A stretch of DNA of 64,000 nucleotides from Boswellia sacra (taxonomy: Eukaryota > Streptophyta > Magnoliopsida > Sapindales > Burseraceae): contig SNVD02016032.1 in the NCBI GenBank assembly GCA_013180625.2, positions 60,274 to 124,273 on the forward strand. Direction: 5' to 3'. The translations under genes and the position numbers were made by a program. This document shows, one piece after another, positions 3,236 through 57,060 of this stretch (the stretch's first letter is position 1; every line of letters starts with the position of its first letter). Under the pieces are notes generated by a model, which saw only the letters and a list, made by a program, of their open reading frames with translations, had not been told where the DNA came from and searched no databases.

Positions 3236-3511
3236 TGTCAAATTAAGTAGCCTTATTTGGAAAGATTGTGTAGAAAATCTTGTATAATTACCTGATTTTT
3301 AGGAATTAGAGTTAGGTGCAGATTTTACCTAATTTATAGGAATTAGATTACCTGATTTCTAGGAATTAGATTTAGGTACAGATTTTTTTGGGAAGTTTAA
3401 TATTTTTAGGAATTTGTTACTATATTTAAGCTAGACAATTGTGTATATAAACCAAGGCTGTAACCTAATTTTTAATAAGACAAAAATTTATTTCTCTATT
3501 ACGATTTGTCA
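3236..3511 (+). repeat. copia B 5' LTR
   Basis: 276 bp, pairs with 8130-8384. It is longer than the 3' copy because a short internal segment around the repeated word AGGAATTAGA is present one extra time (about 3340-3362). Preceded by TSD GAATG. Confidence 0.93.
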
Positions 3512-3656
3512 TGGCTCTTTCCTGATAAACTCTGAATTTTTCTGTTCTTTTCTCTGGCCATATCCAACCAAGTTCCATCTTCTCTGTTCCTCTCAATCGT
3601 CTTAGCCTTCTCTCTCATATTTCCCTATTTGTATCTATTTTTCCATTCAATCAATC

Positions 3657-4536: not shown

Positions 4537-4768
4537 AAACTTCATGGCAGGTCCAATGAGAAACCCAATCGAAGTGTGAATGATCGAAGTCAGGCACATA
4601 TGGTGAGTACTTCGTCAACCATTAAAGAAAATTCCAAGAAATCTGCGCCTGAATTTAACATCGAAGAAATTGAGAAACTAAAAACCTTTTTGGGATCTTT
4701 TAAGAAGCCAACCTCGACAGGTACTTGTTCTTTGGTGTTTTCAGGTATTTCTTCTTCTTCTTGTACTA

Positions 4769-7437: not shown

Positions 7438-8118
7438 ATAGAGGATCCTATCAGCGGCTTGTTGGGAGGTTGATATATCTAGCACACACAAGACCAGATA
7501 TAGCATTTGTAGGAGTGTGGTTAGTCAATTTATGCACAATCCTAAAGAATCACACCTCAAAGCAGTAAATAGGATATTACAATACTTGAAAGGCAGCGCG
7601 GGAAGAGGAATTTTGTTTAAGCGAACAGGCACAGGCATGACGTTAGAAACTTATACTGATGCCGACTACGCAGGATCTTTGGTTGACAGGAGATCAACTT
7701 CTGGTTACTGTACTCTCCTAGGTGGGAATCTTGTAACATGGAGAAGTAAGAAGCAGAACGTGGTAGCAAGGTCTAGCGCAGAGTCAGAGTTTAGATCAAT
7801 GGCTTTGGGAATATGTGAGTTACTCTGGGCGAAGATAATCTTAGATGACTTAAGAATAAAATGCGAAGGACCCATGAGGCTGTACTGTGATAATAAATCA
7901 ACCATCAGTATTGCTCATAACCCTGTCCAACATGATCGAACAAAGCATATTGAAGTTGATAGACATTTTATCAAGGAGAAACTAGACAGTGGTTTGATGT
8001 GAACTCCATTTGTTTCAACCAAGGATCAGTTGGCAGACGTACTCACAAAGGGACTGATAAGCACTGTGTTTCAAGAAATTATTAGCAAGCTTGGGATGGA
8101 AGATATCCATTCACCAGC
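7438..8118 (+). pseudogene. copia B RNase H domain
   Basis: The 7517-8002 frame carries the copia RNase H: TYTDADYAGS, STSGYC, GGNLVTWRSKKQ, ARSSAESE, LYCDNKS and the terminal DVDRHFIKEKL-like stretch. The acidic residues of the DEDD set are visible. A TGA at 8000-8002 stops it; the conserved tail (DQLADVLTKGL) is still readable to about 8060, followed by the PPT. Confidence 0.9.
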
Positions 8119-16402: not shown

Positions 16403-16776
16403 TGACGAAGAACCCATAACAAGACAAACCAAAATCAAACACTCACTCAACAATCACTCACACTCACACACAATCAACCAACAATCTGTCTGAATACTCT
16501 TTTAATATATCAATGAATAAAGTCTGAATAATGTCTACAAAGAATAATGAAACCCTATATTTATACTAATCAAGACATATTAGAATTTGAGTCAAATTAG
16601 GAAAGTCAAAATCCCTATTTAAGTCAAAATCCCTAGACTAACAATTTAGATTTGAATCAAATTAGGAAAAGTCAAGATCCCTAAATTGACAATTTTCCAA
16701 ATTAAATAAAACCTTAATTAAATAAATACTAAAAGACTATATTAACTCTAATAATAAAATTATCCATGCTACATCA
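16403..16776 (-). repeat. Chromovirus 3' LTR (plus its PPT at 16777-16789)
   Basis: 374 bp, plus-strand TGACG...ACATCA. It lacks an 18-bp piece (with AGTCAAAATCCCTA) present in the partner LTR. The adjoining plus-strand ATTCCCCCCGAC is the reverse complement of the PPT. Confidence 0.94.
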
Positions 16777-16788
16777 ATTCCCCCCGAC

Positions 16789-18267
16789 TTAGAAAGACTC
16801 GTCTCCGGACGAGTGGGATTGCAAATAAAAATCCAAAGCACGGGAGTTGATGCGACGGAGCTCATCCTCAGGAAGCCAAGTATCATCATCGGCTGGTCGT
16901 CCCTTCCAACGAACAAGGAAACGACGAAAACCACCAGTTGTAGAAGTAACAAAGTGGTCATCCAAAATGCGATCAACTTCATCATTCGGTGGAGGATCGA
17001 ACGGAGGCAATTGAGGTACGACAACAGTAGGAGAACTTGCAATAACATCAAAAACAGCTGGAGGCTCGAAATGTCCTTGGTAAGGAAACAAGTCTGCCAC
17101 ATTAAAAATTGGATTGATACTCCAATCAGAAGGTAAATCAAGTAAATAAGCATTAGAACTAAGCCTACGATTAACTTTAAATGGGCCATGGGCACGGGCT
17201 TGTAATTTCTTGTTAGGTTGTTTAGGAAAGCGAGAAGGATCAAGGCGAACCATGACATAATCATCTTCCTTAAAAACCTTATCTCTACGATGCAGATTAG
17301 TAGCAGACCTATATTTTTCATTGCTCAAGGAAATCATTTGTCTAACCTCAGCATGCAAATCACGCATATGGGTGGCAAAATCAGTAGCAAAATTTGATGA
17401 AGGGTAGTGAGAGGGTAAGCGAACAAGGTCAATGGGTCGGCGGGGTTCAATACCATAAACAATCATGAATGGACTCTTACCAGTTGACCTATGAACAACA
17501 TTATTATAAGCAAACTCAGCCATGGGTAACACTAAATCTGAATTACCTAACTTCTCACCTACCACACAACGAAGCAAGTTCCCCAAGCTACGATTAACCA
17601 CTTCAGTTTGACCATCGATTTGAGGATGATAAGCTGAAGAGAACTTAAGAGATGTACCAAACAGTTTCCAAAGTGTCTTCCAAAAGTAGCTAACAAACTT
17701 AACATCTCTATCAGACACAATTGACATAGGCGGTCCATGGAGACGAACAATCTCCCTAAAGAATAGTTGAGTTATATGTGAAGCATCACTAGTCCTGGAA
17801 CAAGGGATAAAATGGGCCATTTTAGAAAACCTATCAACCATAACAAAAATAGAATCATGTTTCCTAGCGGTTTTAGGTAATCCTAAAAGGAAATCCATAC
17901 TAACATCTCTTCAAGGAAGGTAAGAAACAGGAAGGGGAGTGTATAAATTCCTAGCGGTTTTAGGTAATCCTAAAAGGAAATCCATACTAACATCTCTTCA
18001 AGGAAGGTAAGAAACAGGAAGGGGAGTGTATAACCCTTGATTGAGTTTTCTAGCCTTAGCTTGTTGACACGTACGACATTGAGATACAATCCTAGCAACA
18101 TCCCTCTTTAATGATGGCCAATAAAACCTATCCTCAACTAAGGCAATGTTTTTATCCCTCCCTAAGTGACCAACTAATCCTCCAACATGCATTTCCCAAA
18201 CTAGAAAATCTCTCATAGAAGTATTGAGGAATGCATAAACGAGAACCCTTAAAAAGGTAACCATCAC
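16789..18267 (-). pseudogene. Chromovirus integrase with C-terminal chromodomain
   Basis: Frame 17998-18267 holds the HHCC zinc region (HVGGLVGHLGRDKN.., CRTCQQAKARKLNQG). The main frame 16789-17898 (369 residues) starts inside the core at MDFLLGLPKTARKHDSIFVM and shows the catalytic set: D in VMVDRFSK, D in IVSDRDVKF and E in GQTEVVNRSLGNLLR. The GPF-type module (HGPFKVNRRLSSNAYLLDLP) follows. Residues about 310-360 are a chromodomain (VDRILDDHF, FLVRWKGRPADDDTWLPEDEL), which targets integration to particular histone marks. A frame break with an 87-bp tandem duplication lies between the two frames. Confidence 0.9.
17861..18034. repeat. 87-bp tandem duplication inside integrase
   Basis: TTCCTAGCGGTTTTAGG begins at 17861 and again at 17948; the following sequence to AGGGGAGTGTATAA is the same in both copies. 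The length is 29 codons, but the duplication joins frames that carry a stop, so the integrase is not continuous. Confidence 0.95.
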
Positions 18268-19486
18268 GAATGATAAAATCTACATGATTCCTACAGTTAT
18301 TATCTAAAAGTTCCTTATAAATGATGCCAAAATCAAGACAAGAGGGATACTTAGACTTCATCCTATCAAATTCTACAATTTCAACTTGCATGGTTTGAAG
18401 GGTGTACATGACTCTACTAAGGGCATCAGCTACCTTATTATCCTCTCGAGGCTTGTGCCTTAGGACAAAGGTGAACATTTGAAGGAACTCAGACCACTTG
18501 ACATGTCTCTTATTTAATCGCTTTTGAAATTGAAGATATTTTAACGCTTGATGGTCAGAGTAAAGGACAAATTCATTAGGCAAAAGGTAATACTGCCAAT
18601 GTTGTAGAGATCTAACAATAGCATAGAACTCTTTATCATAGGTAGAATACCTTTGTTTAGCCTCATTGAGTTTCTCACTAAAGAAAGCAAGAGTGTGACC
18701 CTCTTGACTCAAGACTCCTCCTATACCTACTCCTGAAGCATCACAAGCTACTTCAAAGACTTTAGAAAAATCTGGATGCCTAAGAACAGGGGCTTGAGTC
18801 ATATGTTGCTTAACAAGCTCAAATGCTCTAGTGATTGTAAGGGTCCATTGAAATTCACCCTTTCGCATGCAATCAGTGATGGGTGCCATGATGGTGCTAA
18901 ACTCTCTAATGAATCTCCTATAGAAAGAAGCTAATCCATGAAAACTACGAATTTCAAACAAAGTCCTAGGTGTAGGCCACAATGTAATAGCTTTTATCTT
19001 ACCAGTATCAGCTTTTATACCCTTTGAAGAAACTATGAATCCTAAGGAAAGGACTTGAGACTATATAAAAGAACATTTCTTAAGATTGATGTACATCTTC
19101 TCATTCCTAAGGGTACTGAAAATTTTCTTAAGATGGTCCAAATGATCTTCCTCACTCTTACTATATATGAGAATATCATCAAAATAAACTACAAGAAACT
19201 TCCCTGTAAAGGGTCGTAACATATGTGTCATGACTCTTATAAAAGTACTAGGAGCATTAGACAACCCAAAAGGCATAACTAACCACTCTTACAATCCATC
19301 AGGGGATTTAAAAGCGGTTTTCCACTCATCACCTGGTCTAATCCTAATCTGGTGATAACTACTCCTTAAGTCTATCTTGAAAAACCAACTAGAACTAGCT
19401 AACTCATCTAACATATCCTCAAGTCTAGGCATGGGAAACCTATACTTAATCGTTATTTTGTTGATGCCCCTACTATCAACACACAT
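18152..19486 (-). pseudogene. Chromovirus reverse transcriptase and RNase H
   Basis: Three frames. 19289-19486: [20 protein letters not shown] and [20 protein letters not shown]. 19061-19276: [12 protein letters not shown] and the catalytic [17 protein letters not shown] (FDD at about 19176-19187 on the plus strand). 18152-18982: connection and RNase H with FEVACDASGVGIGGVLSQ, FFSEKLNEAKQRYSTYDKEF, LYSDHQALKYL and KVADALSR. Breaks occur at about 19288 and 19050-18990. Catalytic aspartates are kept. Confidence 0.92.
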
Positions 19487-19489
19487 TCT

Positions 19490-21610
19490 TCAAGATCCAT
19501 CTTTCTTAGGGGTGAGTAACACTGGAACTGTACAGGGACTAAGACTATGACGAATGAGACCTCTCTCTAACAAACCATCTATTTGTCTATTTAACTCAGC
19601 TCTCTCGGTGGGATTCATCTTATAATGTGGAAGGTTAGGAAGTTGTGAACCTGGAACTAAGTCAATGGCATGTTGAATATCCCTCATAGGTGGTAGCTCA
19701 TTTGGTAAGTCCTTAGGGTCTACATCACTAAACGCTTCTAAAAGTTCGCCTATCTTAGGGGAGAAGTCTAAACTAGACTCCGGTGATTGCTCTTTTAGAA
19801 CCAAAGTGTACATAGCACCAGTCTCTTGGCTTTCTTTCATAAAATGAGTTGAACCCAAAATATTCAAGTTGTGTTTCTTAGGCTCTAAGGTATTGGATCT
19901 AGATTTTGGAGTTGGCTTATCCTTTTGAACCCTAGTTGAAACCCTACAATTGTCATTAGGTTTGGCTGGTTTCAAGGTAATAGGTTTACCACAATGATTA
20001 AAGACATAGGTATTCTCTTTCCCATAGTTTATAACATCATAGTCATAAAGCCATGGTCTACCTAGGAGGATATGAGCTACATCCATGGGTAACACGTCAC
20101 AATAGATGTTTTCTTTGTAAGAACACAACTTAAGAGGAACAAGACATCTATGGGTGATAGGTAGGGTTGTTTTATTAACCCAAGCTACTTCAAAAGGATT
20201 AGGGTGAGGCTCTAGAGTGAGGTTAAACCTATTAATTGCAGCCTTAGAGATGACATTTAAGGTACTACCTCTATCTATAACTAGTTTGCATAACTGATTC
20301 TTAAGAGAAACTAAGGTATGAAAAATACTAGTTCTCTTCCACGAATCAGAAACTACTGGAGTAGACAAGATACAACGCATAACTGACAATTGCTCATTAA
20401 ACTTCTCTTCTTGAATGTCTCCTAATCCTAAATCTTTACTCTCCTCTAATGGTTCTAAGACCTCTCCTTTAGGATCCTCATGTATTGATTCACTAGGGTC
20501 ATATCCTATGGTCATAATACGACTAAGACAACGAGCAGCAACATGGCCTCTACCTTGACAATTGTGGCACACAATTGGGGAACTAAAGGATTGGTTTGAG
20601 GCATTCATTGATCTTTCCCTATTCGAGTTGAAACGAGGATTTACATTAGGATGGGAGGCACTAGATGTGGAGTAACTAGGAGTTGACGAGCTAGAAGCTC
20701 TAGGAGTGGAGGATTGTTGATTAAAGTTGCTCCTATTAAAAGCCTTAATTTGAGGAGATGGAGTATGCACTGAAGAAGTTTGCCTAGCATTATAAGTTTT
20801 CGCATGGAGTTCAGCTTCTAGGGCTTTAGTATAGGCATCTTCTACAGTTTTAGGAGAGGTCAACTCAACAACACGCTGGATGTCAAACCTAAGTCCATTA
20901 ATAAATCTCGAGACGGTGGCATCGATAGACTCTTTAATATTACACCTAATGTGAAGACTATCAAACTTAGATTGGTACTCAAAGACACTTGAAGAACCTT
21001 GCCTAAGATTAAGCAATTGCCTATAAAGTTGCTTCCTGTAGGACTGAGGGATATATTTTTGTGTAAGGTCCATTTTTAATTCTGCCCAAGTAGGAGAACG
21101 ACGATGCTGTTGGCAAAATCTACATTCTATAGACTAACAAAAAATCTTAGCAGTACCAACTAATTTAAGTTGAGCAAAATGAACATGATAGGAGTCTACC
21201 ATGTCATTCCAATCAAAGTAATCCTCTATGGCATCTATCCAATCTAAAAAAGTAGTGGGTTCTAACCTACCATCAAACTCAGGAACATTGTGTTTGACAT
21301 CCAAAGGGCTGTCAGATGACGCATACCTAGAATGACTTCTGGTGCTTCTATGACTGCCTTTATCATCACTATCATCTTCAAACAAAGGATTATGAGTATA
21401 TTCATGCTCAAGATGTCTTTTAGATGTAGATCCTATGACTTCCTTATCCTTATCAAATCTATTAGATGACTCAAGATTGTTATCCCTACGATTAACTTGC
21501 TCTCTAATATCATGTACTATTTATTCAATTTGAGTGAACCTAAATTCCAATCCATTCAACCTATTGTTTATGGTATTTAAATCAGGTTGTTCAGGCGGGG
21601 GATTTGGGCA
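19490..21610 (-). pseudogene. Chromovirus gag and protease
   Basis: The N-terminal coiled segment (TINNRLNGLEFRFTQIE) is at about 21521-21606 and the gag core at 21134-21385 (VPEFDGRLEPTTFLDWIDAIEDYF, quoted to 20 as EFDGRLEPTTFLDWIDAIED). The 527-residue frame 19490-21073 continues gag (YRQLLNLRQGSSSVFEYQSKF), a serine-rich linker, an intact CCHC knuckle CHNCQGRGHVAARC (plus strand about 20529-20570), the protease (LVIDRGSTLNVIS then HILLGRPWLYD) and the RT entry (YKMNPTERAELNRQI, VPVLLTPKKDGS). The protease has DRGS where D-S-G or D-N-G is usual. Confidence 0.9.
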
Positions 21611-40197: not shown

Positions 40198-40896
40198 ACT
40201 CCTTTAAAGAAAGTAGATTGAGCAGGGCCAAGAGATCCAAAAGAAGAGAGAAGTCCAAGCTTGAACAACAAGAAGGATCCACTAGTAAGGTGGCCACGAA
40301 GAAAAAGCCTAAGATTGAAAAAACCTAAGGTTGAAGAGCCCAATGAAGAAGGGCCCAGAGAGATCATTGAAAGGATGAAAGACGAGTCCATTCTTTTGGC
40401 AACCAAGATCTACACTGAGAAAGGTGTATGGATCAATATTGCAGTAAAGGGAGTCAAGCGAAGCTTAGAATCTGAATTTGTGTGCCTCAATGACCATGAG
40501 GAAGAAGAACAACAAAAAACATATGAAGAGGAAGTTGAGGTGGAGAATGAAGAAGCATCTGCCAAGGAAAAGTCCACATCATGAGTGCCTTTGCCAATAA
40601 ATGGATGGCTAGAAAATGGGTTAGAAGAGGGCCAGCACCTAGAAGACTCAAAGTAAAGAAGGGTAGCAAAGCTAGGAAAGGGAAGCGAATTGAGAACCTT
40701 GTAAGAAGAGAGAGCTTACCTAGAAGGTGCAAAGAAGTGAGAGTTATAGGTATTTGGGATGACATTCTTAAAGTTAAGACGCTTCCAAAATTTTGGGCTG
40801 ACTTTAGTAGTGATGAAGAAGACAGAGTGAGAGTCAAGGGAGAAACACTTAAGGGCGAGAGTGAGAACGTTCAAGGAGTGACAAGGAGTGGGAGAT
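40198..40896 (+). pseudogene. Tat gag-protease linker (plus copy)
   Basis: Frames 40261-40584 and 40581-40910 resemble the minus-strand copy (EEGPREIIERMKDE, KGVKRSLESEFVCLND). The second frame ends in FWADFSSDEE and GVTRSGR, the Tat motif preceding protease. The reading breaks at 40896, where Athila inserted, and its partner resumes at 52120. Confidence 0.8.
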
Positions 40897-42257
40897 TGAT
40901 GAACACTTAAATATGCATGTTTAATAAGAGTTTAGTTCATCATATTGCATTAATAGTGTCATTAAATTCCTCAACTTAAGCATATTTGTAGCATTTGCAT
41001 CTTTGGAATTAATTTCTCTTAATTTTGGTTTTGTTACAGGTTCGGTAAAATGGGCATAACTCCCTATTTATAGATCAGAATGGTGCAATTCTTAATGTTT
41101 TGGAAAGCTGATTCAATTGTCTACAAGATTGCATTTCACAAGCATCATCAAATTTGGGCTCTTAGTGGACCAAAATTGGGCTTGAAATGAACCCATCTAT
41201 AGTCTCGGCCCAGTCTGACCAGGCCTCAGTATTTGGACCGTATCTCTCAAAATACGTATCCAAATTGTGCAAATCAATATATTCTAGAAAGATGAGAGAA
41301 ATATCTACAACTTTCATGAAGACATGTGATTAAAATTCACAACATTTCGATGTCAAAATTGATGGTCAAAGTCGATGCCTAATGATCCCAATTGTCAAAG
41401 ATATTTACAACTAACATTTGACAATTATGCCCTTGTAATTTGACAAGTTTGCCCCTGGATGTATCTATAAATAGAGGTGCCTTGTGATCCATTAGGGCAT
41501 CTTGGCCTTGGCTGGAACATTTTGGCTTTGGCTAGGATCTTGTATTGTGTTTTGTGTGTTTATGTTATTAATGAATTTCCTTTTTCTTACATTGTATTTT
41601 CTTTCTATTATAATGTTCTTCTAATTTCTCTTTTGCTAAGGTGAAAGGGTGAAAACCTTGATATGAGAATAAGAATTCTCTAACCCTTAATATGTGCTTA
41701 ATAATCTTAATCTTATAATGTTTATTCAATATGATTTATATTTAATTTCTTAATCAATCTTGACACCACTCGTAAAGTGGTGGTCTTGATCCATTGTCGA
41801 CAATCCTGGCACATCAAATGCTTGGATCCTTTCTAGATGTCGTATGGTTCTTCCTTACCGACATGAATCTAGTTAGGAACCTTGATTTGTTGTAGACATA
41901 TGGATTGGCACATTGGATGCTTGAACCCATTTACAAGTAGTGGTATAAATATTGGTAATGAAACAAATATAATTCATATAACTAAAATGGGTTTTTATCC
42001 TTATTCGAAATATCAAAGGCGGATCCCCTAACCTTAGCTCATTATTATGTGTTAATTCTCTTCTTTATTATATTTTTTTTGATTCTCTTATCTATTGTTG
42101 ATATTATCTTGCTCCTTTGAATCATCCATATCATATTTGCTTAGCTTATAATTTGTAGCGCTAAAATCCCCCTTCCTCGTGGATCGACCCCGGTCTCACC
42201 GGGTTTTATTACTTCGACACTCCTATACTTGGAGACAATCCTTTTTCGGATGTGTCA
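40897..42257 (+). repeat. Athila 5' LTR
   Basis: 1361 bp. TATA-like CTATAAATAG lies at 41465-41474. Aligns with 50728-52119 over its length with roughly 20-30 substitutions by eye and a few indels, mostly near its 3' end. Confidence 0.95.
41465..41474 (+). promoter_or_regulatory. TATA box of the Athila LTR
   Basis: CTATAAATAG, about 570 bp into the LTR, conserved in the 3' LTR at about 51295-51304. It would start the genomic transcript. Confidence 0.7.
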
Positions 42258-42263
42258 AGTTTT

Positions 42264-42280
42264 TGGCGCCGTTGCCGGGG
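42264..42280 (+). other. Athila primer binding site
   Basis: TGGCGCCGTTGCCGGGG six bases inside the 5' LTR, complementary to plant tRNA-Asp 3' end; the usual Athila PBS. Confidence 0.95.
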
Positions 42281-42413
42281 AAGGTAAAAATTGGCGTGCA
42301 AAATTGTAAGTGTTCTCTTTTCTCATCTTAGATCTTTTTTATTTTTTTGTGTGTTCACTTTTCTTCTCTTTCTTCTCTCTTTCCTTGCATGAAAATTTGG
42401 TCACGAACATCTA

Positions 42414-43800
42414 GTGGTAGACTTGTTAGAAAAATCATCACTCCTTAGAAAACATGGCCGACAATCATGTGAAATATTCACGGATGAAGGGGACAACCGT
42501 TCGCAACAAAATGATCAAAACCAACGAAGAACCCTCAGAGACTACATGAATCCGGTAAGGACTAGTGCACCATCTTGTGTAGTTTCTCCTCCAGATTCAA
42601 TCCATTTCAATTTCAAACCAAGTTTTTTTCGACTTCTACCCACTTTTCATGGCCTTGACATGGAGAACCCATATTCGCACTTGAAACTCTTTGAAGAGGT
42701 ATGTAGCTCCTACACTGACCCAAATTGTAGCATAAACACCATTAGATTAAAGCTTTTTCCTTTTCTTTAAAAGATAAAGCTAGAACATGGCTACAAAATT
42801 TGAGGTCGAATTCCATCAGTTCATGGGATGAGATGAAACAACAATTTTTGAAAAAATTTTTTCCTACCCATAGAACAAATTCTCTTAAAAGACAAATTTC
42901 TGATTTCTCTCAAAACAAGGGGAAACCCTTTTACCAATGTTGGGATAGGTATAAGGAACTACTTAATACCTGTCCTCACCATGGTTTGAAACTTGGAGAA
43001 TAGTTGCACACTTCTATGAAGGGTTAACACCTCAAGATAGGCAACTAGTAGAATTAATGTGTAATGGAGAATTTAAAGAAAAAGACCCTGAGGAAGCACT
43101 TGACTTCCTAGATTCCTTGGCAGAAAAGGCACAAAATTGGGACACTGCTGGCACCTATGAGGTACCAAGCAAGACCCCAACCTCGACATCCAATAGAGGT
43201 ATTTACAACCTTAGGGAAGACCATGACCTTCAAGCCAAATATGCATCCCTAGCTAGAAAAGTCGAGGCTTTAGAAATGAAAAAGAGGGTCAATTAAATCT
43301 ATTCAAGAAAATGTCTGTAACATTTGTGATGACAATGACCATTCTACTGATGATTGCCCAACTTTGCCTGCCTTTAGGAATGTCCTCCATGAGCAAGCCA
43401 ATGCCTTGAACACTTTCAAAAGGCCAAATCACAATCCATACTCACAAACCTACAATCCTGGTTGGAGAAATCATCCAAATTTTAGTTGGAAAAAAATGAA
43501 ATCATGCACAATCTTCACAAGTCCCTTTTCAAACACGACAAAATTTTCAAAATTCTCATGATCATGCATATGCTCCTCCTCCTAGGAATGACTTTGAAGA
43601 AACATTGCATTCATTCATTACAAAGCAAGAGACTTTCAATAGTCAAACTGCTCAAACATTAGCAAATTTGTCAGAAACTCTTGCAAAATTTGCATCTACA
43701 TTTAGCATCCAAGAGAAGGGAAAATTTCCTTCTCAAACATTGCAAAACCCCAAAGATCAATCTAACTCAAATGCAGGGAGTTTCAAGTAACCATATTTTG
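42414..43800 (+). pseudogene. Athila gag
   Basis: Three main frames. 42414-42770: RRTLRDYMNPVRTSAPSCVV, FHGLDMENPYSHL and INTIRLKLFPF. 42800-43003: SSWDEMKQQFLKKFFPTHRT and CWDRYKELLNTCPHHG. 43057-43296: MCNGEFKEKDPEEALDFLDS and AENAQNWDT-like residues. An intact CCHC knuckle CNICDDNDHSTDDC is at 43316-43357, just past a TAA. 43364-43790 is the variable C-terminus. Two frameshifts and at least one stop disrupt it. Confidence 0.9.
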
Positions 43801-43951
43801 ACCAAGCCAAGTCAGTCATGACCCTTCGCAATGGTAAGGTTGTTGAAAACACATTCCTAACCCTTGTGAGAAAGAAGAAGAATCGATCTCTAAAGGGCAG
43901 GAAGAGGTTGCCAAACCAACACCTAGCGAAGAGGAAACCATATCCTCATCT

Positions 43952-44530
43952 GTGCCTCCATTTCCTCAAGCATTAGCCACACAAAAGAAGCCAACTCACA
44001 ATTCTGAAATCTTTGAAATTTTCAAACAGGTAAAGGTCAACATTCCCTTGCTTGATGTGATCAAACAGGTACCTTCTTATGCAAAATTTTTGAAAGACTT
44101 GTGCACTGTGAAAAGAAAACTGAATGTGAAAAAGAAGGCCTTTCTAGCCGAGCAAGTAAGTGCTATTCTTCAAAATAATAATACAGTGAAATATAAGGAT
44201 CCAGGTTGTCCTACAATTTCATGTGTTATTGGAGACCATAAAATTGAACAAGCTTTACTTGATCTTGGTGCTAGTGTGAATTTGCTTCCATACTCAGTTT
44301 TCAAAAACTCAATCTAGGTGAGTTAAAACCGACTTCTGTGACTCTTTTTGCTTGCTGATAGATCAATTAAAGTACCAAGAGGAGTAGTAGAAGATGTATT
44401 AGTTCAAGTCATAAATTCATTTACCCAGTGGATTTTATCGTCTTGGACACACAACCAGTGGAAGTAAGCAATTCAATTCCTGTTATTTTAGGGCGTCCAT
44501 TTCTAGCTACTTCTAATGCTTGATTAATTG
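43952..44530 (+). pseudogene. Athila aspartic protease
   Basis: Frame 43952-44317 includes IPLLDVIKQVPSYAKFLKDL, then the active site ALLDLGASVNLLPYSVF; DLGA is the normal Athila form. The frame is lost at about 44320; [17 protein letters not shown] and [13 protein letters not shown] residues are readable to about 44515. Confidence 0.88.
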
Positions 44531-44715
44531 CAGGAATGGAGTCATGAAGCTATCATTTGGGAACATGACATTGGAACTTAATGTTTTTAATATGTGCAAA
44601 CAACCAAATGAAGAAGAAGATGAAATTGATAAGGCCAATGTATTGAATCTATTGTGGAAGATCACATCCAAAAAGGGAGTTCTTCTGACCCTTTGGAAAT
44701 TCATTAGAATCAAGT

Positions 44716-45705
44716 ATGGAACTCGATTATGATCTTTCTGATATATGTTCTTTATTGGATTGTGCACATGTGATGGAAAAAGGCTCAAAATCAAGATTTG
44801 AAGAATTGGGGCAAATGAATGAAAGCAAGGAAGAGGAAGATCCCAAGTTAGAATTGAAGCCCTTACCTGAAGGACTGAAATATGCATATCTTGGGGAGAA
44901 TCAGACATATCCGGTGGTAATGTCTTCATCCCTCACATGCGAGCAACAAGGTAAGTTGATAGAAGTGCTTAAAAGGCATAAAAATGCAATTGGGTGGACT
45001 TTAAAAGATATAAAAGGCATTAACCCTTTAATTTGCACACATAGAATACATTTATAGGAAAATGCCAAAACATCTCAACAACCTCAAAGGAGATTAAATC
45101 CACACATGAAAGAGGTCATTAGGGCTGAAGTTCTCAAACTATTTGATGTGGGAATTATCTATCCTATTTCTGATAGTAAGTGGGTAAGCCCTACACAAGT
45201 AGTACCTAAAAAATCTGGCCTTACAGTAGTTAAAAATGAAAAGGGTGAATTATTGCCAACTCGTGTCTCATCTAGTTGGAGGATGTGCAATGGTTATAGA
45301 AAATTAAATGCTGTCACTAGAAAAGACCATTTTCCCTTACCCTTTCTTGACCAAATTCTTGAAAGAGTAGCAGGAAACCCTTACTACTGCTTTCTTGATG
45401 GATACTCAGGCTACTATCAAATCCCCATTGCACTTGAAGACCAAGAAAAGACCACATTCACGTGCCCCTTTGGCACTTTTGCTTTTAGGAGAATGCCTTT
45501 TGGACTTTGTAATGCCCCAGCCACTTTTCAAAGATGCATGTTAAGCATTTTCAGTGACATGGTTGAGCATTGTTTAGAAGTTTTCATGGACAATTTAACT
45601 GTCTTTGAAAATTCTTTTGATAATTGTCTTAAAAACTTAGAAAAAGTCTTAAAAACATGTGAAGAAAAAGGTCTTATTTTAATTGGGAAAAATATCATTA
45701 TATAG
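44716..45705 (+). pseudogene. Athila reverse transcriptase, catalytic motif mutated
   Basis: Frame 44716-45057 is the protease-RT linker (LELKPLPEGLKYAYLGEN, TCEQQGKLIEVLKRHKNAIG). RT in 45106-45705: WVSPTQVVPKKSGLTVVKNE, SWRMCNGYRKLNAVTRKDHF, LDGYSGYYQIPIALEDQEKT, FAFRRMPFGLCNAPATFQRC. The catalytic box, normally F-M-D-D, reads FMDN (45583-45594), with AAT in place of the second aspartate codon. This would abolish polymerisation even without the stops. Confidence 0.92.
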
Positions 45706-46440
45706 TTACCTCAAGAGTTGTCTTAAGTCATGTGGTGTCTTCTGAGGGAATTGAAGTTGATAAAGCAAAAATGGAATTGATTTCCATTTGCCTACACCAA
45801 AAACAGTCAAGGAGGTCTGTTCATTCTTAGGCATGCTGGATTTTTATAGGAGGTTCATAAGAAATTTAGTGCTATTCCAAACATCTTTGTAACCCTCTTA
45901 ATAAAAGATACTTCCTTTGAATGGACATCAAGAATTTCAAAATGCCTTTGATACACTAATTGGACCTTTTAACAACTGCTACCATTATGCAATTCTCCGA
46001 TTGGTCCTTGCCTTTTGATTGATTGTGTGATTGCAAGTGAACTATGCCGTTGGTGCTGTCTTATGACAAAGAAAAGAAGGTAAGCCTTATGTAATATACT
46101 ATGCAAGTAGGACTTTAAATGATGCACAAATGAATTACACAACAACTGAGAAAGAACTACTTGCAGGAGTATTTGCATTGGATAAATTTCGATCTTATTT
46201 AATTGGCTCTCCAACAATTGTTTACACTGCCATGCAGCTGTGAGATATTTAATATCTAAATAGGATGCAAAACCTAGATTGATACGGTGGATCTTATTGC
46301 TCCAAGAATTCAACATCACAATAAATGATAAGAAAGGAGCCGAAAATGTCGTTGCTGATCATCTTTCAAGACTAACGACAGAGACATTAATTGAAACTTC
46401 ACCTATCAATGATTCTTTTCTTGATGAATTTTTATTTTCT
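45706..46440 (+). pseudogene. Athila RNase H region
   Basis: FLGMLDFYRRFI-type connection near 45825, then KPYVIYYASRTLNDAQMNYT and TTEKELLAGVFALDKFRSYL at about 46080-46200, and FNITINDKKGAENVVADHLS at 46310-46370. The first RNase H motif is frameshifted. Typical for Ty3/gypsy. Confidence 0.87.
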
Positions 46441-47690
46441 GTTGCTACTGTACCTTGGTTTGCTAACATTGTAAATTTTTTTGCGACAGGGAAAATGCCA
46501 CCTCATTGGAATGCTCAAGACAAAAGAAAATTTTTAACCGAGGTGAAAATTTTTACTGGGATGACCCATATCTGTTCAAATATTGTCCAGACCAAATAAT
46601 GAGAAGATGCATACCCGACAATGAGGTAAGTAGTGTCATTAACTTTTGTCATTCCGAAGCATGTGGCAGATATTTTTCATCTAGAAAACAGCTGCTAAGA
46701 TCTTACAATGTGGATTGTATTGGCCCTCCTTATTGAAAGATGCACATGCATTTTGCAAAACGTGTGAAAATTGTCAAAAATTGGGATCTATTTCAAAAAG
46801 AAACATGATGCCGTTGAATCCCATTCTTGTCGTTGAAATCTTTGACTGTTGGGTATTGATTTTATGGGACCCTTTCCACCGTCATTTGGTTTTGTGTACA
46901 TCCTTGTTGCAGTAGACTATGTTTCAAAATGGGTCGGGGCAATTCCATGTCGAAACAATGATCACAAAACAGTTGTCAAATTCTTGAAGGAGAATATCTT
47001 AAGTAGATTTGGAATTCCTCGAGCCATTATTAGTGATGGGGGTACACATTTTTGTAACAAACCATTTGAAACTTTAATGAAGAAATATGGAATAACCCAT
47101 AAAATTTTTACACCTTATCACCCACAAACAAGTGGACAAGTTGAATTAGTTAATAGGGAGATAAAACAGATCTTAGAAAAAACGGTTAACCCAAATCGTA
47201 AAGATTGGTCTTTAAGACTTAATGATGCACTCTGGGCTTACCGAACTGCTTTCAAAACATCATTGGGAATGTCTCCTTATAAATTAGTTTATGGAAAACC
47301 TTGTCACTTGCCAGTGGAAATTGAACATAAAGCTTTTTGGGCCATTAAAACATTTAACACAAACTTGAATGATGCTTGCAAGTTATGAAAACTCCAACTG
47401 AGTGAACTTGAAGAAATCAGGAATGAGGCTTATGAAAATTCTAAAATCTACAAAGAAAAAATGAAGGTTTTTCATGACAAATTTGTTGTTAGAAAATCTT
47501 TTGAACCTTCACAAAAAGTTCTTTTGTATGATTCAAGGTTGCATTTATTTCCTGGTAAACTTCGGTCACGTTGGACTGGGCCTTTCATTGTTAAAAATGT
47601 TTTCCCTCATGAGCAGTTGAAATTGAGAACCCAAAGAATGGTCATGTGTTTAAAGTTAATGGACAACGGTTAAAACATTCTTTGAAAATT
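46441..47690 (+). pseudogene. Athila integrase
   Basis: The HHCC part is fragmented (CPDQIMRRCIPDNE, HSEACGRYFSSRK, CKTCENCQKLGSISKRN). The core frame 46849-47388 is open and keeps the triad: D in [10 protein letters not shown] in IISDGGTHF and E in [32 protein letters not shown] follows. The C-terminal part 47461-47673 has [15 protein letters not shown]. Frames are separated by a TGA at about 47386 and by short gaps. Confidence 0.9.
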
Positions 47691-47865
47691 TTGACCAAAA
47701 TGAAGGAGTCCATTGCTTTTAGTCGAGTCCTTTTTAAGGATTGATTTTTCCCGGTCAAGTGGGCGGATACGGTACTCCGTGACATTTTAAGTCGGTTTTT
47801 CAGTTCCCTAAAAACTGTTGCTCACCTTGCATCCATTTTCTTTTCTTCTCTCTCATTTTCTTCAC

Positions 47866-48431
47866 ATGGATACCATTCTCTCAAAATTGCACAAACATTT
47901 TCCCTCTCTTCCTGAAAATGATTTGCTTAAAATTTATAAAGCTCGTGAAGAAAGACTAAGGTTGTTGATGCGTAAGGGTATTCCTGCTGATTTAAGATGG
48001 TTAATTGAAGCCAAGGTTCGATTCTCTTGTGAGTTTTCAGATAATCTTGTTTCCCATATGCAAGGTTTGGGAAAAAGCTCTTATGCCAAAAAGCGAAGAG
48101 CGAAAAGGTTACAAGTTGTGTCCAGATGTTTCCAAGATGGACTTGTAACCAGCCGTTGCAGCTCTTGGATATTTGGTCTAACAATCGCGAGGCTACAACT
48201 AATAGTTTCCATCAAGATGGACGGGAGTAAGGAGTCTTTGGATGATATCCGAACGCTCTTGATACCATTCTTGTGGACGTTGTGCAGCGTGAAATTTTTA
48301 ATTTGTGGACACAATTCCGAGATGAGCAGGAACGCTATAAGTCTTGGAATCTGACATCAAAACGACCCTGTTTGCCATTTTATAAGAAAACTGGATGGGA
48401 AACATATCCCCAACTCATAGAAGGTGTTTAA
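47866..48431 (+). pseudogene. Unidentified ORF between integrase and the LOG-like gene
   Basis: ATG at 47866 opens MDTILSKLHKHFPSLPENDL; the reading is basic and helix-rich (KAREERLRLLMRKGIP, KKRRAKRLQ). At about 48110 the plausible reading switches frame: LLDIWSNNREATTNSF, FNLWTQFRDEQERYKSWNLT and CLPFYKKTGWETYPQLIEGV ending at TAA 48429-48431. Two stops lie in the middle. I do not recognise it. It occupies the place where some Athila elements carry an env-like ORF, but no signal peptide or transmembrane helix is apparent. A second captured gene is also possible. Confidence 0.45.
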
Positions 48432-48677
48432 GCCGTTTCTGGACGTAAAACCAGAGGAAGATGTGAGCCACAGTCACAACTACCTGTACATATGCATGCG
48501 TGCCATCATTTTTGAATTTTAATACCTCATGGCTGTCATTTTTTAATTTGTATCTTTTGTTTGACTTATGGTGTCTTATTTCATCATCTTTTGACCTTTT
48601 TTTGCATTATTGTCAACTTTTTCAACAAACAATTGAGCTACCTAGATAGATATCATCATTAACATACCTTTTTGCAC

Positions 48678-48736
48678 TCCATAAATACCACATGTCTTGT
48701 TCTCTTCTTCACACATAGTTAGAGAGTCACATCGAC
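48678..48736 (+). promoter_or_regulatory. Possible core promoter and 5' UTR of the LOG-like gene
   Basis: TCCATAAATACC at 48678-48689 is TATA-like and is followed by a C/T-rich leader (GTCTTGTTCTCTTCTTCACAC) ending at the ATG at 48737. The layout resembles a plant core promoter; function is inferred only. Confidence 0.35.
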
Positions 48737-49488
48737 ATGGAGGGAACTTCAAAACGTCGAATCCAAAGGATATGTGTATTCTGTGGATCTCGACCAGGTA
48801 AAAGTGAAGAGTTCGTAAAAGTAGCGAATTATCTTGGTAGGCTACTGGCTGAAAGAAAGATTCATGTGGTTTATGGGGGAGGTAGCCTCGGGTTAATGGG
48901 TTGTGTGTCAACAGCTGCACATGTAGGGGGTACTCAGTTTTAGGAGTTATTCCTAAAGCTTTGGCTGTAGAAAGTATTGTTGGAAAAACGGTTGGGAAGG
49001 AGTTACAGGTCTCCTCTATGCATGAACGCATGGCACATATGCTCATCAATTCAGATGCCTTTATTGCTTTACCAGGTGGCTTTGGCACTCTTGAAGAAAT
49101 TTTTCAAATTGCCTCTTGGGCCCAACTGAATCTCCATCAAAAACCCATAGGTTTGTTGAATGTCAAAAATTTCTTTGATCCTTTGATAAGTTTTGTTGAT
49201 GCAGCTGTGGAACAGAATTTTATCCCTCATTCAGCGAGAAAGATCCTTATTTTTGCCACTTCTGCTGGTGAGCTACTTGACAAATTACAAGAAGTTGAGT
49301 ATGAACCTGACCCAGCTAGTACTCAAATTAATTGGGCAGGAGGGCAAAACAAAAAGTGCAAATTGGATTTGAATCTCCGTTGTAATTTTTTTTTTCTTCT
49401 TGTCCTTTATTTTATTTTTTTTATTTTTAGCATGTTATTTTATGAGTCTTTCAGGTCATCTCTCTTGAATAACAGAAGCTTCAGGTAA
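48737..49488 (+). pseudogene. LONELY GUY-like cytokinin riboside 5'-monophosphate phosphoribohydrolase captured by Athila
   Basis: LOG enzymes release free cytokinin base from its riboside monophosphate. ATG 48737 gives 68 residues with ICVFCGSRPGKSEEFVKVA (12-30) and VVYGGGSLGLMG (44-55). At 48935-48943 a one-base loss shifts the frame; the second frame continues LGVIPKALAVESIVGKTVGK, VSSMHERMAHMLINSDAF, the signature PGGFGTLEE (49072-49098), SWAQLNLHQKPIGLLNV and INWAGGQNKKCKLDLNL. Joined length, about 250 residues, includes roughly 35 hydrophobic residues past the expected LOG end. No introns are present, whereas plant LOG genes have several, so a spliced RNA was probably the source. Sense orientation, between integrase and the 3' LTR. 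Assignment to the LOG family is secure; activity is unlikely with the frameshift. Confidence 0.9.
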
Positions 49489-50127
49489 TGTCTCCTATAC
49501 TTTATCTCTCTACATTTAAACATTGAGGACAATGTTTTATTTGGTTGGGGGGAAGGATAGTAGACATAAGTGTGTCTTGAAATTTTATTTTTTCTTGCAA
49601 AAAAAAAAAAACGAGTTAGTAATTAGATTCAGAGTGCGGTGTAAGGAGTTCAAATCCTCTTGAGACGCATTCTGGGTCAGGAATGGCAGAGTAGGGAGGA
49701 CCAGTTTGAACTCTTGAAACCCATTCTAACCAATTTGTCATTTTATTTTGCATTTTTGAAGACTATTTGATATTATTTAGTCTTGATTTTTGAATTTTAT
49801 AACAAGGAGGTCTTATTCATTTCACTTTGAATCATTCAAATCTATGAACTCTCACAACCTTATCATTTAATAAATTGTGTGCTTATGTGCTCATTAAGCG
49901 AGTATCTATGAATCTTTCTTCACACACACACATACCTTGATGTATGATTGTGGGTGGCAAAATGAAATATTGCAATATTTGAGTTCTTTTGTTTTGTTTA
50001 GGAAAACAACAAAAGGAAGGGGAAAGTTTTAAAAAAAAATGAAAAAAAATGAAAAAAATGAAAAATGAAAGAAAAAAAAAAAGAAAAAAGAGAGAAAGCA
50101 ATGGTGGATAAGTTTGGTCTTGTAGCC
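49489..50127 (+). other. Athila 3' untranslated region with conserved block
   Basis: Contains ACATTGAGGACAATGTTTTA..TTGGTTGGGGGGAAGG-type text (about 49518-49556), a block conserved downstream of the last ORF in Athila-like elements and probably an internal PPT. It is followed by A-runs (49599-49611, 50030-50095). No coding sequence seen. Confidence 0.7.
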
Positions 50128-50400
50128 TCCTTAATTCGAGCAATTAAGCCCGAGGGGTGCCTCAACACCTAATACCCTAAGACCAACTGGTTTGGGAGCT
50201 ATTGGCCCAAAGCTCGCTACATGGATTAAGGAGAAAGCTTAATGGGATTGAACATTGCACTATCCACAAGTTTTCTAAGCAAAAATAAAGCATCGGCAAC
50301 CCGAGTCGTTAAGCTCGTAAGGGGTGTCTTAACACCTAATGCCCTAAGGCCAACTGGTCTGGGAGTCATTAGCCTAAGGCTCGCTACATGGGTTAAAGAT
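50128..50400 (+). repeat. Diverged tandem pair (about 165-bp period) in the Athila 3' region
   Basis: GGGGTGCCTCAACACCTAAT.CCCTAAG.CCAACTGG..TGGGAG and GCTCGCTACATGG occur at about 50135-50230 and again at 50297-50396, roughly 80 percent alike by eye. Confidence 0.85.
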
Positions 50401-50716
50401 GCATTCTTTCAAAAAAAAAAAAAAAAGTATAAAATGAATGAATATCCCCTACCTAAGGTTGTTAGCCTTAACAAATACTAGAACCGATATGGCTTATTTC
50501 TAATAAGCCCCATAGTCATGTGTCAACTGAGCACAAAAGAAGGTTTGTGGATATCTTGACTGAAGGGTACATGAGTCATTTAAAAAAAAATCAGTTGAGA
50601 GTTTGTTTATTTGGATAAAATCAAGGAGAGTGCAATAATAACCACCTTGGATGTAAAATTCTATAAATCACTTCTAAATAATAACGCTTTAATTGCTAGG
50701 GACTAGCAATAAGCTA

Positions 50717-52119
50717 GTTGGGGGGTGTGATGAACACTTAAATATGCATGTTTAATAAGAGTTTAGTTCATCATATTGCATTAATAGTGTCATTAAATTC
50801 CTCAACTTAAGCATATTTGTAGCATTTGCATCTTTGGAATTAATTTCTCTTAATTTTGGTTTTGTTACAGGTTCGGTAAAATGGGCATAACTCTCTATTT
50901 ATAGATCAGAATGGTGCAATTCTTAATGTTTTGGAAAGCTGATTTAATTGTCTACAAGATTGCATTTCACAAGCATCATCAAATTTGGGCTCTTAGTGGA
51001 CCAAAATTGGGCTTGAAGTGAACCCATCTACAGTCTCGGCCCAGTCTGACCAGGCCTCAGTATTTGGACCGTATCTCTCAAAATACGTATCCAAATTGTG
51101 CAAATCAATATGTTCTAGAAATATGAGAGAAATATCTACAACTTTCATGAAGACATGTGATTAAAATTCACAACATTTCGATGTCAAAATTGATGGTCAA
51201 AGTCGGTGCCTAATGATCCCAATTGTCAAAGATATTTACAACTAATATTTGACAATTATGCCCTTGTAATTTGACAAGTTTGCCCCTGGATGTATCTATA
51301 AATAGAGGTGCCTTGTGACCCATTAGGGCATCTTGGCCTTGGCTGGAACATTTTGGCTTTGGCTAGGATCTTGTATTGTGTTTTGTGTGTTTATGTTATT
51401 AATGAATTTCCTTTTTCTTACATTTTATTTTCTTTCTATTATAATGTTCTTCTAATTTCTCTTTTGCTAAGGTGAAAGGGTGAAACCCTTGATATGAGAA
51501 TAAGGATTCTCTAACCCTTAATATGTGCTTAATAATCTTAATCTTATAATGTTTATTCAATATGATTTATATTTAATTTCTTAATCAATCTTGACACCAC
51601 TCGTAAAGTGGAGGTCTTGATCCATTGTCGACAATCCTTGGCACATCAAATGCTTGGATCCTTTCTAGATGATGTATGGTTCTTCCTTACCGACACGAAT
51701 CTAGTTAGGAACCTTGATTTGTTGTAGACATATGGTGATTGGCACATTGGATGCTTGAACCCATTTACAAGAAGTGGTATAAATATTGGTAATGAAACAA
51801 ATATAATTCATATAACTAAAATGGGTTAATTATCCTTATTTGAAATATCAAGAGCGGATCCCCTAACCTTAGCCTTCATTGTTAGTGTGTTAATTTCTCT
51901 TGTATTCTAATTATTCTTATTTATTGTTTACGAACTTCTTCTTTACTCATAATTGTTGATATTATCTTTCCATCTCTTTGAATCATCCATATCACGTTTG
52001 CTTAGCTTATAATTTGTAACGCTTAAATTCCCTTCCTCGTGGATCGACCCTGGTCTCACCGGGTTTTATTACTTCGACACTCCTATACTTGGGAGACAAT
52101 CCTATTTTCGGATGTGTCA
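50717..52119 (+). repeat. Athila PPT and 3' LTR
   Basis: PPT AGTTGGGGGGTG next to the LTR at 50728-52119 (1392 bp, TGATGAAC...GTGTCA), followed by TSD GAGAT (52120-52124). Confidence 0.95.
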
Positions 52120-53518
52120 GAGATTTTACAATGAGAAGAAGGAGAGAACAACCAAGAAGACTGTCAAGAAGGGCAAAGAAGTTGCCAAAGAAGAAACCAA
52201 GGAATAAGAAGATGACCAAGTCATCAAGCAATTAAAGAAGACCCAAGCGAATGCTAGCATTTGGCATTTGTTGATATCATCCCAAAAGCATAGAGAAGCC
52301 ATGGCGAGGGAGTTGGCAAAAGTGGAAATATCAATGGCTGCTACTACAAATGAAATGTTGGTCGCCATGATCGAAGGAACACCCAAGGGGGTAATCACCT
52401 TCATTGATGAAGATCTACCTCTCGAGGGAAGGAATCATAACAAGCCGTTGTTTATCACCGCAGAGATTAGTGGGAAGACATCCTTTTGCATCATGGTGGA
52501 TGATGGATTTGCCATTAACATTTTGCCAAAGAAGATTCTACACAATTACGGGGTCAACGAAGATGAGTTTGAGCCTTGTGAGATGGTGATAAGGGCCTAT
52601 GCTAACTCGAAGAGGAGTGCCATTGGGATCTTCAAGGTGTTAGTAAAGACTGAGCCAATTGAAGTAATGACAAAATTTATAGTTCTTGACATTCCAATCA
52701 CCTTTGCTACTTTGTTAGGATGAGCATGGTCCCTTCCATACTACATCAAAAGATACGATTCAACATGGATGGGGAGATTGTGACCATTCATACGGCTCCA
52801 ACTATTACACTAGTTGCCTTAAGGGTGAAGGTTAGAGAGATACCCTACATGGGAGACTTTTATGTAGCCATGATTAACGAAGTTAGCCCAATTATCGCTG
52901 TGATAATGAAGAAACAAAGATATTTATTAGGAATTGGGCTTGGGAGGAATGGACGTGGTTTACCATCCCTTCCAGATTTCAAAGGCCAAACTTTTAAAAA
53001 AGGTTTGGGTTATGAGTTCGATGAGAAAGAAGAAGACTCTGAGCCCAATAAAGGGAGATTCATCAAGTTCGTTAAAGCCTAAAATGCAAACTATGTGGGA
53101 GCTGTTGAACCATGAGTTTTCAAGGGAATATTAAAGCCCAAATTCAAGATTTTCAAGGATATCATCAAGCAGGAATCTCCAAGATCAAGCACCACCAATG
53201 GACCCGTCCATCGACCTTGCCACATTCATCGAGGAAGGAATTAAAGATGTATTTTATGAGGATGTATTTGTGCCCAGCCTCTTTAAAGAAGAGGACATTG
53301 TTTATGTTTCTAAATTTGATGCAATAAAGAATCAGTTTGCTTACTTGTGTCATGCCTTTCCTAATGGCATTGTGCATCATAAATTGTATTTCACTAGCAT
53401 TTTTGACATTCATACCATTCAAACTCATGACATTAATCTTGGTACAAAGCCCAAGAACATATGTATTGTACTTGATACAACTCTTGAAGAGAGAGAAAGA
53501 GATTTGAAAAATTACTAA
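52120..53518 (+). pseudogene. Tat aspartic protease and protease-RT linker (plus copy)
   Basis: Continues the frame cut at 40896. QLKKTQANASIWHLLISSQK (about 52230) and 52268-52723 with KGVITFIDEDLPLEGRNHNK, ITAEISGKTSFCIMVDDGFA. The active site reads V-D-D-G-F where D-G/N-G-S is expected. 52720-53082 carries VREIPYMGDFYVAMINEVSP and GRGLPSLPDFKGQTFKKGLG (G-patch-like linker). 53198-53518 is a variable spacer. Frames change at about 52725, 53080 and 53200. Confidence 0.87.
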
Positions 53519-54899: not shown

Positions 54900-55190
54900 A
54901 AGTATAATCTCAGTAGTGGGATGGAGGATGTTCTTTGATGAAGTTGTCAATCGGACTAGTGCTGGAATAGAAGTTATTCTAGTATCACCAACTGAAGAAG
55001 TCATTCTATTTGCTAAGAAGTTAGAGTTTAGAGTTACCAACAACATGGCTGAATACGAAGCTTGTGCATTTGGTTTTGAAGTTGTGATTACAATGTGTAT
55101 TAATGAAATAGAAGTGTTGGGAGATTCAAAACTAGTCATTCTCAAGCCAACGAAGATTGGGATCTATAGGAAGGAAGATTAAAACCATAC
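54900..55190 (+). pseudogene. Second, archaeal-type RNase H of the Tat lineage
   Basis: Frame 54916-55182: WRMFFDEVVNRTSAGIEVIL, SPTEEVILFAKKLEFRVTNN, MAEYEACAFGFEV, EIEVLGDSKLVI. The FFD, AEYEA and GDS(K/Q)LV motifs are those of the additional RNase H found only in Tat-type plant elements; the usual F-D-G reads FDE. Confidence 0.88.
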
Positions 55191-55810: not shown

Positions 55811-56040
55811 CTTGATGAACAACCTCATCAAGACTTTTTCCTTCAACTCTTGATAACACCACACCAAGAGTTCTTCTTGATGAACAACCTCACCAAGGCA
55901 ACTTCCTTCAACTCTTGATAACACCACACCAAGAGTTCTTCTTGATGAACAACCTCACCAAGGCAACTTCCTTCAACTCTTGATAACACCACACCAAGAG
56001 TTCTTCTTGATGAACAAACTCACCAAGGAAAAATTTCTCT
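55811..56040 (+). repeat. 65-bp tandem repeat in the solo LTR
   Basis: CTTGATGAACAACCTCACCA starts at 55811, 55876, 55941 and 56006: three full units and a partial fourth, nearly identical. Confidence 0.95.
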
Positions 56041-56339
56041 CAAGGATAACTTATATCCTTTACAAGAAGATCTCACTCTCACCACAATACAAGAACAAAG
56101 TAAATTTTTACAATAAAAGTACAACTCTCTTCAAAGAGTAGATAAAGAATATAAAAGCTCTCTAGACTTGATATTTCTCTTGTTTTTTTACTTGATAAAA
56201 TGATTCTCTTCACTTCTTGTTATTCTGAATGCATGGGAGAAGGGCTCCTTTTATAGGCAAATGGGATGAACTTAATCAAGTGAAGACACCAACTCCAAAT
56301 TTTCTGCCCACCATAAAAACCGTAATTTTGCCTGCCATT

Positions 56340-57060
56340 TTTGTCAATGTTCTATTTGAAATTTGAAAATATGCAAAACACAAAAGATATGCAAAATTGA
56401 ATAAGCTTTCCAATGCATTAAGCATCAAGTCATTTGGATATATTTAGCTTAAGATATGGCCAAAACACCATTCGGTGCTCATGTGACTTGATTTTTCTTC
56501 CATGTGTCAGTCCACCGAATTGCATGTGTATTATGTCAGCCTTCTGTTTGAAATTTGAATTTCTTCAAAGAATATGAAATCTGATCCATTGAATCATCTT
56601 TCCAATACCATAATAATCAAGTCATTTGAATATCTATAACTCAAGATATGGATAAAACATCATTCGGTGCTCAAATGAGTTGATTTTTCTTCTCTGTGTC
56701 AGTCCACTGAATTGTATGTCAATTATGTCGGCCTTCCGTTTGAAATTTGAATTTCTTCAAAATATATGAAATGTGGTTCATTAAGTCCTCTTTCCAATTC
56801 CATAAGAATCAAGTCATTTTGATTTTTCTAGCTCAATATATGTCTAAAAGAGTATTCAGTGCTCATGTCAGCTGCTTCTATTTGTCTTTCAAATTGCATG
56901 ATGATTTGGACAACCTTACACTTGAAATTTGAATTTCTTTAAAGCATATGAAATGTTATAAATTGAGTAATATTTCCAAAGGCTCAAGAATCATATCATT
57001 TGGACATCTATAGAGATATATATGACCAATTGATTGAACATTGCTTATGTGTCACATTCC
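56340..57060 (+). repeat. About 192-bp tandem repeat in the solo LTR
   Basis: Four diverged units, each with TTTGAAATTTGAATTTCTTC, ATCAAGTCATTTG and CGGTGCTCATGTGA-like words. Anchors at about 56354, 56547, 56739 and 56931. Confidence 0.85.

Follow-up and report, generated by a model that had tools for sequence, protein, structure and literature searches.

Plant LTR retrotransposons are usually taken to need gag and pol only. A LOG-family domain in such elements has a precedent: the available part of PMC9289625, citing Steinbauerova 2011, reports that Gypsy-type consensuses from Populus trichocarpa and two Citrus species contain a YgdH/LOG domain. The first-pass annotation of the locus described here knew of no described Athila element with LOG cargo, which in view of this report was too strong; whether the Citrus and Populus elements are Athila is left unstated in that part of the paper. 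Elements of the Athila/Calypso lineage have a tRNA-Asp primer binding site (PBS) near the LTR end (PMC1142308, in extract). For the LOG enzyme CgLOG, the extract of PMC4979012 gives Arg99 and Glu122 as the proposed catalytic residues, places Lys100 and Glu125 in the adenine and prenyl pocket, and reports that the alanine mutant of Lys100 is inactive. LxLxL is the EAR co-repressor motif (abstracts of PMC6283911 and PMC9956375).

The window, a stretch of 64,000 nucleotides of Boswellia sacra DNA, contains an Athila-type LTR element of 11,223 bp at 40897-52119 (+ strand, as are all of its parts), with the 5-bp target-site duplication (TSD) GAGAT on both sides (40892..40896 and 52120..52124). The 5' LTR (40897..42257, 1361 bp) and 3' LTR (50728..52119, 1392 bp) have TG..CA ends and align with one another at 98% identity over 1146 columns and 92% over 169 columns (95.5% over the whole 1393-column alignment). 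The PBS at 42264..42281 (TGGCGCCGTTGCCGGGGA) is of the Athila/Calypso type and adjoins the LTR; we take it to be the tRNA-Asp complement. It is followed by a gag region with broken frames (42414..43972), which aligns with the gag pieces of the pol-less copies described below. A reverse transcriptase part (45106..45705; RVT_1, PF00078, 79.8 bits) and an integrase core (46849..47388; rve, PF00665, 59.3 bits) are found in the expected order, and a polypurine tract at 50718..50727 was identified by eye. The Athila-type assignment rests on the LTR ends, TSD and PBS type, the reverse transcriptase and integrase being known from Pfam. The host DNA around the element (40300-40896 and 52125-52724) is gypsy-like, and its flanks, when joined, form an open frame through the empty site. 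Downstream are an RVT_3 reverse-transcriptase-like domain (54916-55179) and tandem repeats at 55811-56031 and 56326-57012 (65-base and 192-base spacing). Elsewhere in the window are a copia-type RVT_2 region (776-8002, +) and gypsy remains with a chromo domain (16737-21073, -).

Two accessory ORFs lie between the integrase and the 3' LTR: one that is carlavirus NABP-like (47818..48354) and a LOG-like gene (48738..49376). The presence of a LOG-like gene at this place in a TSD-bounded Athila-type element, as first annotated, is borne out by the LTRs and the GAGAT repeats, and by matches of the stretch 48934-49377 to PF03641 (E-value: 3.8e-36) and to Arabidopsis LOG3 (2a33; E-value: 8.4e-39) that are far beyond chance. 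The PF03641 domain is found in the window LOG itself and the LOG fold in the model of a relative. The gene is intronless and reads on the sense strand, as had been described, but it is not the single open frame that was proposed: a frameshift mid-gene places YGGGSLGLMG and PGGFGTLEE in different frames, and the stop has been lost directly after KLDLNLR, the end of the tail KKCKLDLNLR. Because of the lost stop, the interval first assigned to the gene (48737..49488), although it does hold LOG, extends too far; the gene-equivalent part runs from 48738 to about 49376. This copy is a pseudogene. We regard it, with high confidence, as a decayed copy of an accessory gene that a highly amplified Athila-type family carries in the env position, beside the NABP-like ORF.

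The window LOG DNA was used to search the host genome (638.6 Mb in 7431 contigs) for further copies of the insert, as the first annotation had recommended. There were 2691 first-look candidates, 40 of which were scored (98-100% match, window copy included). All 40 have LOG in the same surroundings, with a match to the window that covers 48457-50356 or more without interruption, small gaps aside. In the stretches fetched, pol lies upstream in 24 copies, is undecided in 3 and is absent from 13. The LOG frame is full-length and open in 22 of the 40 (8/13 pol-less, 12/24 with pol). A second sample was picked by integrase (2160 candidates, 40 scored); the window and two copies already read were skipped and the next 12 by rank were taken. 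LOG is in place in 12/12. It is fully open in 2/12 (4/14 when the two skipped copies, both open, are included), and relative to the window these 12 copies have 0.030 substitutions per site in LOG and 0.021 in the 3' non-coding DNA. The window sub-lineage therefore appears to be decaying like any old insertion. LOG had seemed to be the best-conserved part of the element (0.0093 against 0.021-0.038 elsewhere), but this low divergence arose because the copies had been chosen by LOG match, as the integrase-picked value shows, and the idea was rejected.

In the 13 pol-less copies, gag adjoins the accessory segment. The upstream piece was fetched for nine of them, and LTR, leader and gag are in order in 9/9. 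The gag pieces of two pol-less copies, which are open frames, match Retrotrans_gag. Most of the NABP-like ORF is missing in 4/13. The LTR pairs are 97.9-99.2% identical in six copies (more than 1100 bases compared); over shorter lengths, two further pairs reached 95.7 and 96.9%. One of the nine with a fetched upstream piece immediately follows the 3' end of a second LOG-bearing copy, with an LTR common to both. Compared with the window, gag of the pol-less copies is about 70-75% identical, and LOG and LTR about 94-97%; this disparity hints that the pol-less derivatives involved recombination between lineages. Their LOG may be kept by plain hitchhiking between the LTRs.

The second accessory ORF scores 24.7 bits against Carla_C4 (cut-off 20.9) and 20 bits, below the cut-off of 23, against Viral_NABP. 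Two open copies exceed both cut-offs (Viral_NABP: 28.5 and 30.9 bits; Carla_C4: 23.6 and 28.7 bits). The ORF has 317 relatives at an E-value of 10 or less, and the named ones among the 120 listed, the best of the 317, are all from plants (Populus, Xanthoceras, Rhamnella, Acer and Orobanche). Two Rhamnella gene models join such parts: P0311 joins an integrase end (29/39 residues identical to the window's) to the second ORF, and P0337 is a second-ORF part (63% identical) fused to a LOG part. The table entry for P0337 gives PF01623 and PF03641; our own Pfam scan of it returned PF03641, with PF01623 absent. One NABP-like and one LOG record come from contigs of equal size (8723) and a second such pair from contigs of 2128, so the two genes are probably neighbours in these pairs as well. 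In a fold comparison based on a poor model (pLDDT 56), ranks 1-3 were plant-virus RNA silencing suppressors, at non-significant E-values of 0.56-1.2. The NABP-like alignment gave no match among IMG/VR viral contigs. The LOG alignment led to four IMG/VR contigs that encode remote relatives, with 35-42% identity in their best segments.

The window LOG has 7981 relatives, the best 120 of which are 56-71% identical. Those named among the 120 include Reevesia (33), Diplodiscus (15), Pterospermum (11), Rehmannia (4), Populus (4) and single proteins of Melia, Rhamnella and Paulownia, all of them genera of the rosids and asterids; these proteins are not independent, many coming from three Malvaceae genomes. 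Apart from the Rhamnella gene models, the relatives in other species would also reside in elements. Since related elements in several plants keep LOG, it probably has a function in the element instead of being carried along by chance. In a 52-protein tree, whose outgroup is one bacterial sequence on a long branch flagged by the tree program, 28 element-type LOGs form one clade (support 98/99) and 21 plant LOGs with two host LOGs form the other (98/86). A quick tree of 92 rows agrees (support 98 and 94). All plant LOGs in the set are closely related to LOG3 or LOG8, with LOG5- and LOG7-type proteins left out. The phylogeny proposed at first annotation sets the element-type LOGs apart and places the two host LOGs among those of plants.

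The plant-LOG motif MHxRKAEM occurs at 15 host-genome sites, six of which were fetched. The coding blocks of these loci end near LOG3 residues 68, 78, 112 and 136, and in some also near 35; the fetches were short, and individual loci do not show all of these breaks. This agrees with the earlier statement that plant LOG genes contain introns. The element LOG is continuous where the host blocks end, so capture of a spliced plant LOG RNA fits its origin. The capture first proposed is in keeping with a gene that is intronless and travels with the element; that it was peculiar to the window element is not supported, as the element-type LOGs form a single deep clade apart from the host LOGs.

Element-type LOGs differ from plant LOGs in the substrate pocket and at the C-terminus. 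When 120 element-type LOGs are aligned with 120 from plants (LOG3/LOG8-like), the element-type proteins keep Arg99 in 113/120, Glu122 in 119/120 and Thr119, the threonine of PGGxGTxxE, in 120/120; among the open copies of the window family, Arg99 is found in 21/22 and Glu122 in 22/22. Lys100, present in 120/120 plant LOGs, occurs in none of the element-type proteins (all have Met, Ile or Leu). Glu125, likewise present in 120/120 plant LOGs, is found in only one (Gln or His in 114, another residue in 5). The description of the gene as cytokinin-activating is therefore doubtful, since two pocket residues are replaced and the window copy is a pseudogene. LxLxL is located within the last 14 residues of 109/120 element-type proteins (about 11 lack it there) and of 0/120 plant LOGs. 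Shuffling would give 1.7 of 120. The motif is short and also arises by chance. At least two of the six residues before it are basic in 106/109. In the window family, all 22 full-length open copies have the motif, as the selection script demanded it, and the window copy has KLDLNLR. The modelled relative P0002 folds as a LOG (TM 0.93 to 2a33, by target length), with a low-confidence, disordered tail.

The main rival to a gene-regulatory role is that the element LOG has remained chiefly an enzyme, of changed specificity and with the tail secondary, and cleaves another nucleoside monophosphate or cytokinin nucleotide. In its favour is the nearly constant retention of Arg99, Glu122 and the PGGxGTxxE threonine. 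Set against it are the replacement by Met, Ile or Leu, in every element-type protein, of the lysine whose change to alanine inactivates CgLOG in the extract of PMC4979012, the replacement of Glu125 in 119/120, and a tail as widespread as the active site. We consider this less likely than not. An enzyme of this kind would shift hormone or nucleotide pools where the element is active.

A neutral passenger, that is, a LOG mRNA captured once and amplified with the element while functionless, is less likely still, and we rate it as improbable. It does fit the integrase-picked sample, in which few copies are open and LOG is no better conserved than non-coding DNA, and it fits the broken window copy. 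It accords poorly with the tail and pocket features common to rosid and asterid proteins, and with the substitution patterns of two LOG families. A protein search of the host genome with Arabidopsis LOG3 gave 13107 candidates; the 150 scored are one continuous stretch each, 53-58% identical, and 143 are without stops, although ranking by score favours intact copies. A second LOG-bearing family, whose frame is about 227 codons long, accounts for all of these best 150. The ten matches fetched belong to this family, which is classed as element-type from the LOG sequence, its members having been read as LOG stretches; seven have the LxLxL tail, the other three being truncated. Between the window-family LOG (8 of the 22 open copies) and the second family (6 complete copies), dN/dS is 0.18 at a dS of 1.31. 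Within the second family, a set chosen by protein score, pN/pS is 0.19, and for the window family (22 open copies) it is 0.37. At the codon level, these comparisons show purifying selection on LOG between the two families of the host genome.

Least credible, to the point of being dismissed, is that host LOG retrocopies or functioning host genes were inserted in the element independently, for although the gene lacks introns and some annotations call it a LOG enzyme, its surroundings are common to 40/40 copies, it is present in 12/12 integrase-picked ones, and its clade is separate from the host's intron-bearing LOGs. The independent landing named at first annotation as a refuting case is rejected because of those common surroundings, which also rule out a separate processed pseudogene; no poly(A) or private TSD was seen at the edges of the window LOG.

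The preferred reading, which as a whole falls a little short of an even chance, is that LOG is an ancient, selected accessory gene that probably acts on host gene control. It is supported by the presence of LOG in all LOG-picked and integrase-picked copies, the separate clade, the dN/dS value, the tail, the pocket and the pol-less copies that keep gag and LOG; against it stand the few open frames of the integrase-picked sample (2/12, or 4/14) and its LOG divergence of 0.030 against 0.021 in 3' non-coding DNA. The proposed mechanism is as follows. The element LOG would have ceased to be a normal cytokinin-activating enzyme, with the catalytic Arg and Glu and the pocket for phosphate and ribose retained and the prenylated-adenine pocket rebuilt. 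The LOG domain could then serve as a dimeric scaffold that binds or cleaves nucleotides. In the flexible C-terminus, the basic patch is a possible nuclear signal and is followed by the LxLxL EAR motif. The host nucleus would be the most likely site of action, where the element LOG may bind TOPLESS-type co-repressors. The outcome would be host gene control or silencing altered to the element's benefit, perhaps together with the NABP-like protein. Nuclear action through such putative co-repressor binding, read from the protein sequences, is offered tentatively. Extended to an Athila lineage found in both rosids and asterids, it would mean an enzyme turned into a nuclear co-repressor adaptor that forms, with the NABP-like protein, a two-gene cassette in the env position managing host silencing or transcription, the LOG being kept even without pol; this wider proposal is more speculative.

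If the tail does bind TOPLESS, the element would be tapping, through a protein of its own, into the machinery by which its plant host represses genes. In this one genome, first-look candidates number in the thousands (2691 by DNA and 13107 by protein, of which 40 and 150 were scored); the gene in question is an accessory one that combines a remodelled active site with a tail of co-repressor type and a neighbour of virus type. There is also a warning for annotation: proteins from several plants that are named cytokinin riboside 5'-monophosphate phosphoribohydrolase belong to the element-type clade and are without the plant-LOG substrate pocket. The separate clade, loss of pocket residues, basic and LxLxL tail, selection, pol-less copies and NABP-like neighbour look new. 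Among the literature matches listed, the titles and abstract beginnings include none on the tail, pocket change, NABP-like neighbour or pol-less derivatives, and the terms lysine decarboxylase, lonely and cytokinin are absent from the text of PMC6317226.

The locus resembles several known systems and departs from each. Like the carlavirus NABPs (Carla_C4, Viral_NABP), the second ORF has the core GKSSYAKKRRAKRL..C..C, above the Pfam cut-offs in open copies, but it is about 182 aa long and is found in a retrotransposon. The element LOG shares a C-terminal LxLxL after a basic patch with EAR-motif repressors; here the motif is carried by a LOG-fold retrotransposon protein, and co-repressor binding is putative. 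The fold, PGGxGTxxE and the catalytic Arg and Glu are those of plant type I LOGs (At2g37210, LOG3; At5g11950, LOG8), from which the element LOG differs in the replacement of Lys100 and Glu125, the basic and LxLxL tail, the absence of introns and its separate clade. The Citrus and Populus elements likewise have a LOG-family domain inside a plant Gypsy-type LTR element, and their account, in the part of PMC9289625 available, is silent on pocket changes, a tail, a neighbouring ORF, selection, pol-less derivatives and the lineage. With the Athila/Calypso lineage the window element has in common the PBS type, the reverse transcriptase and integrase, and accessory ORFs between the integrase and the 3' LTR; it shows no evident env-like gene and, in the position of the env-like ORF of that lineage, carries the NABP-like and LOG-like ORFs.
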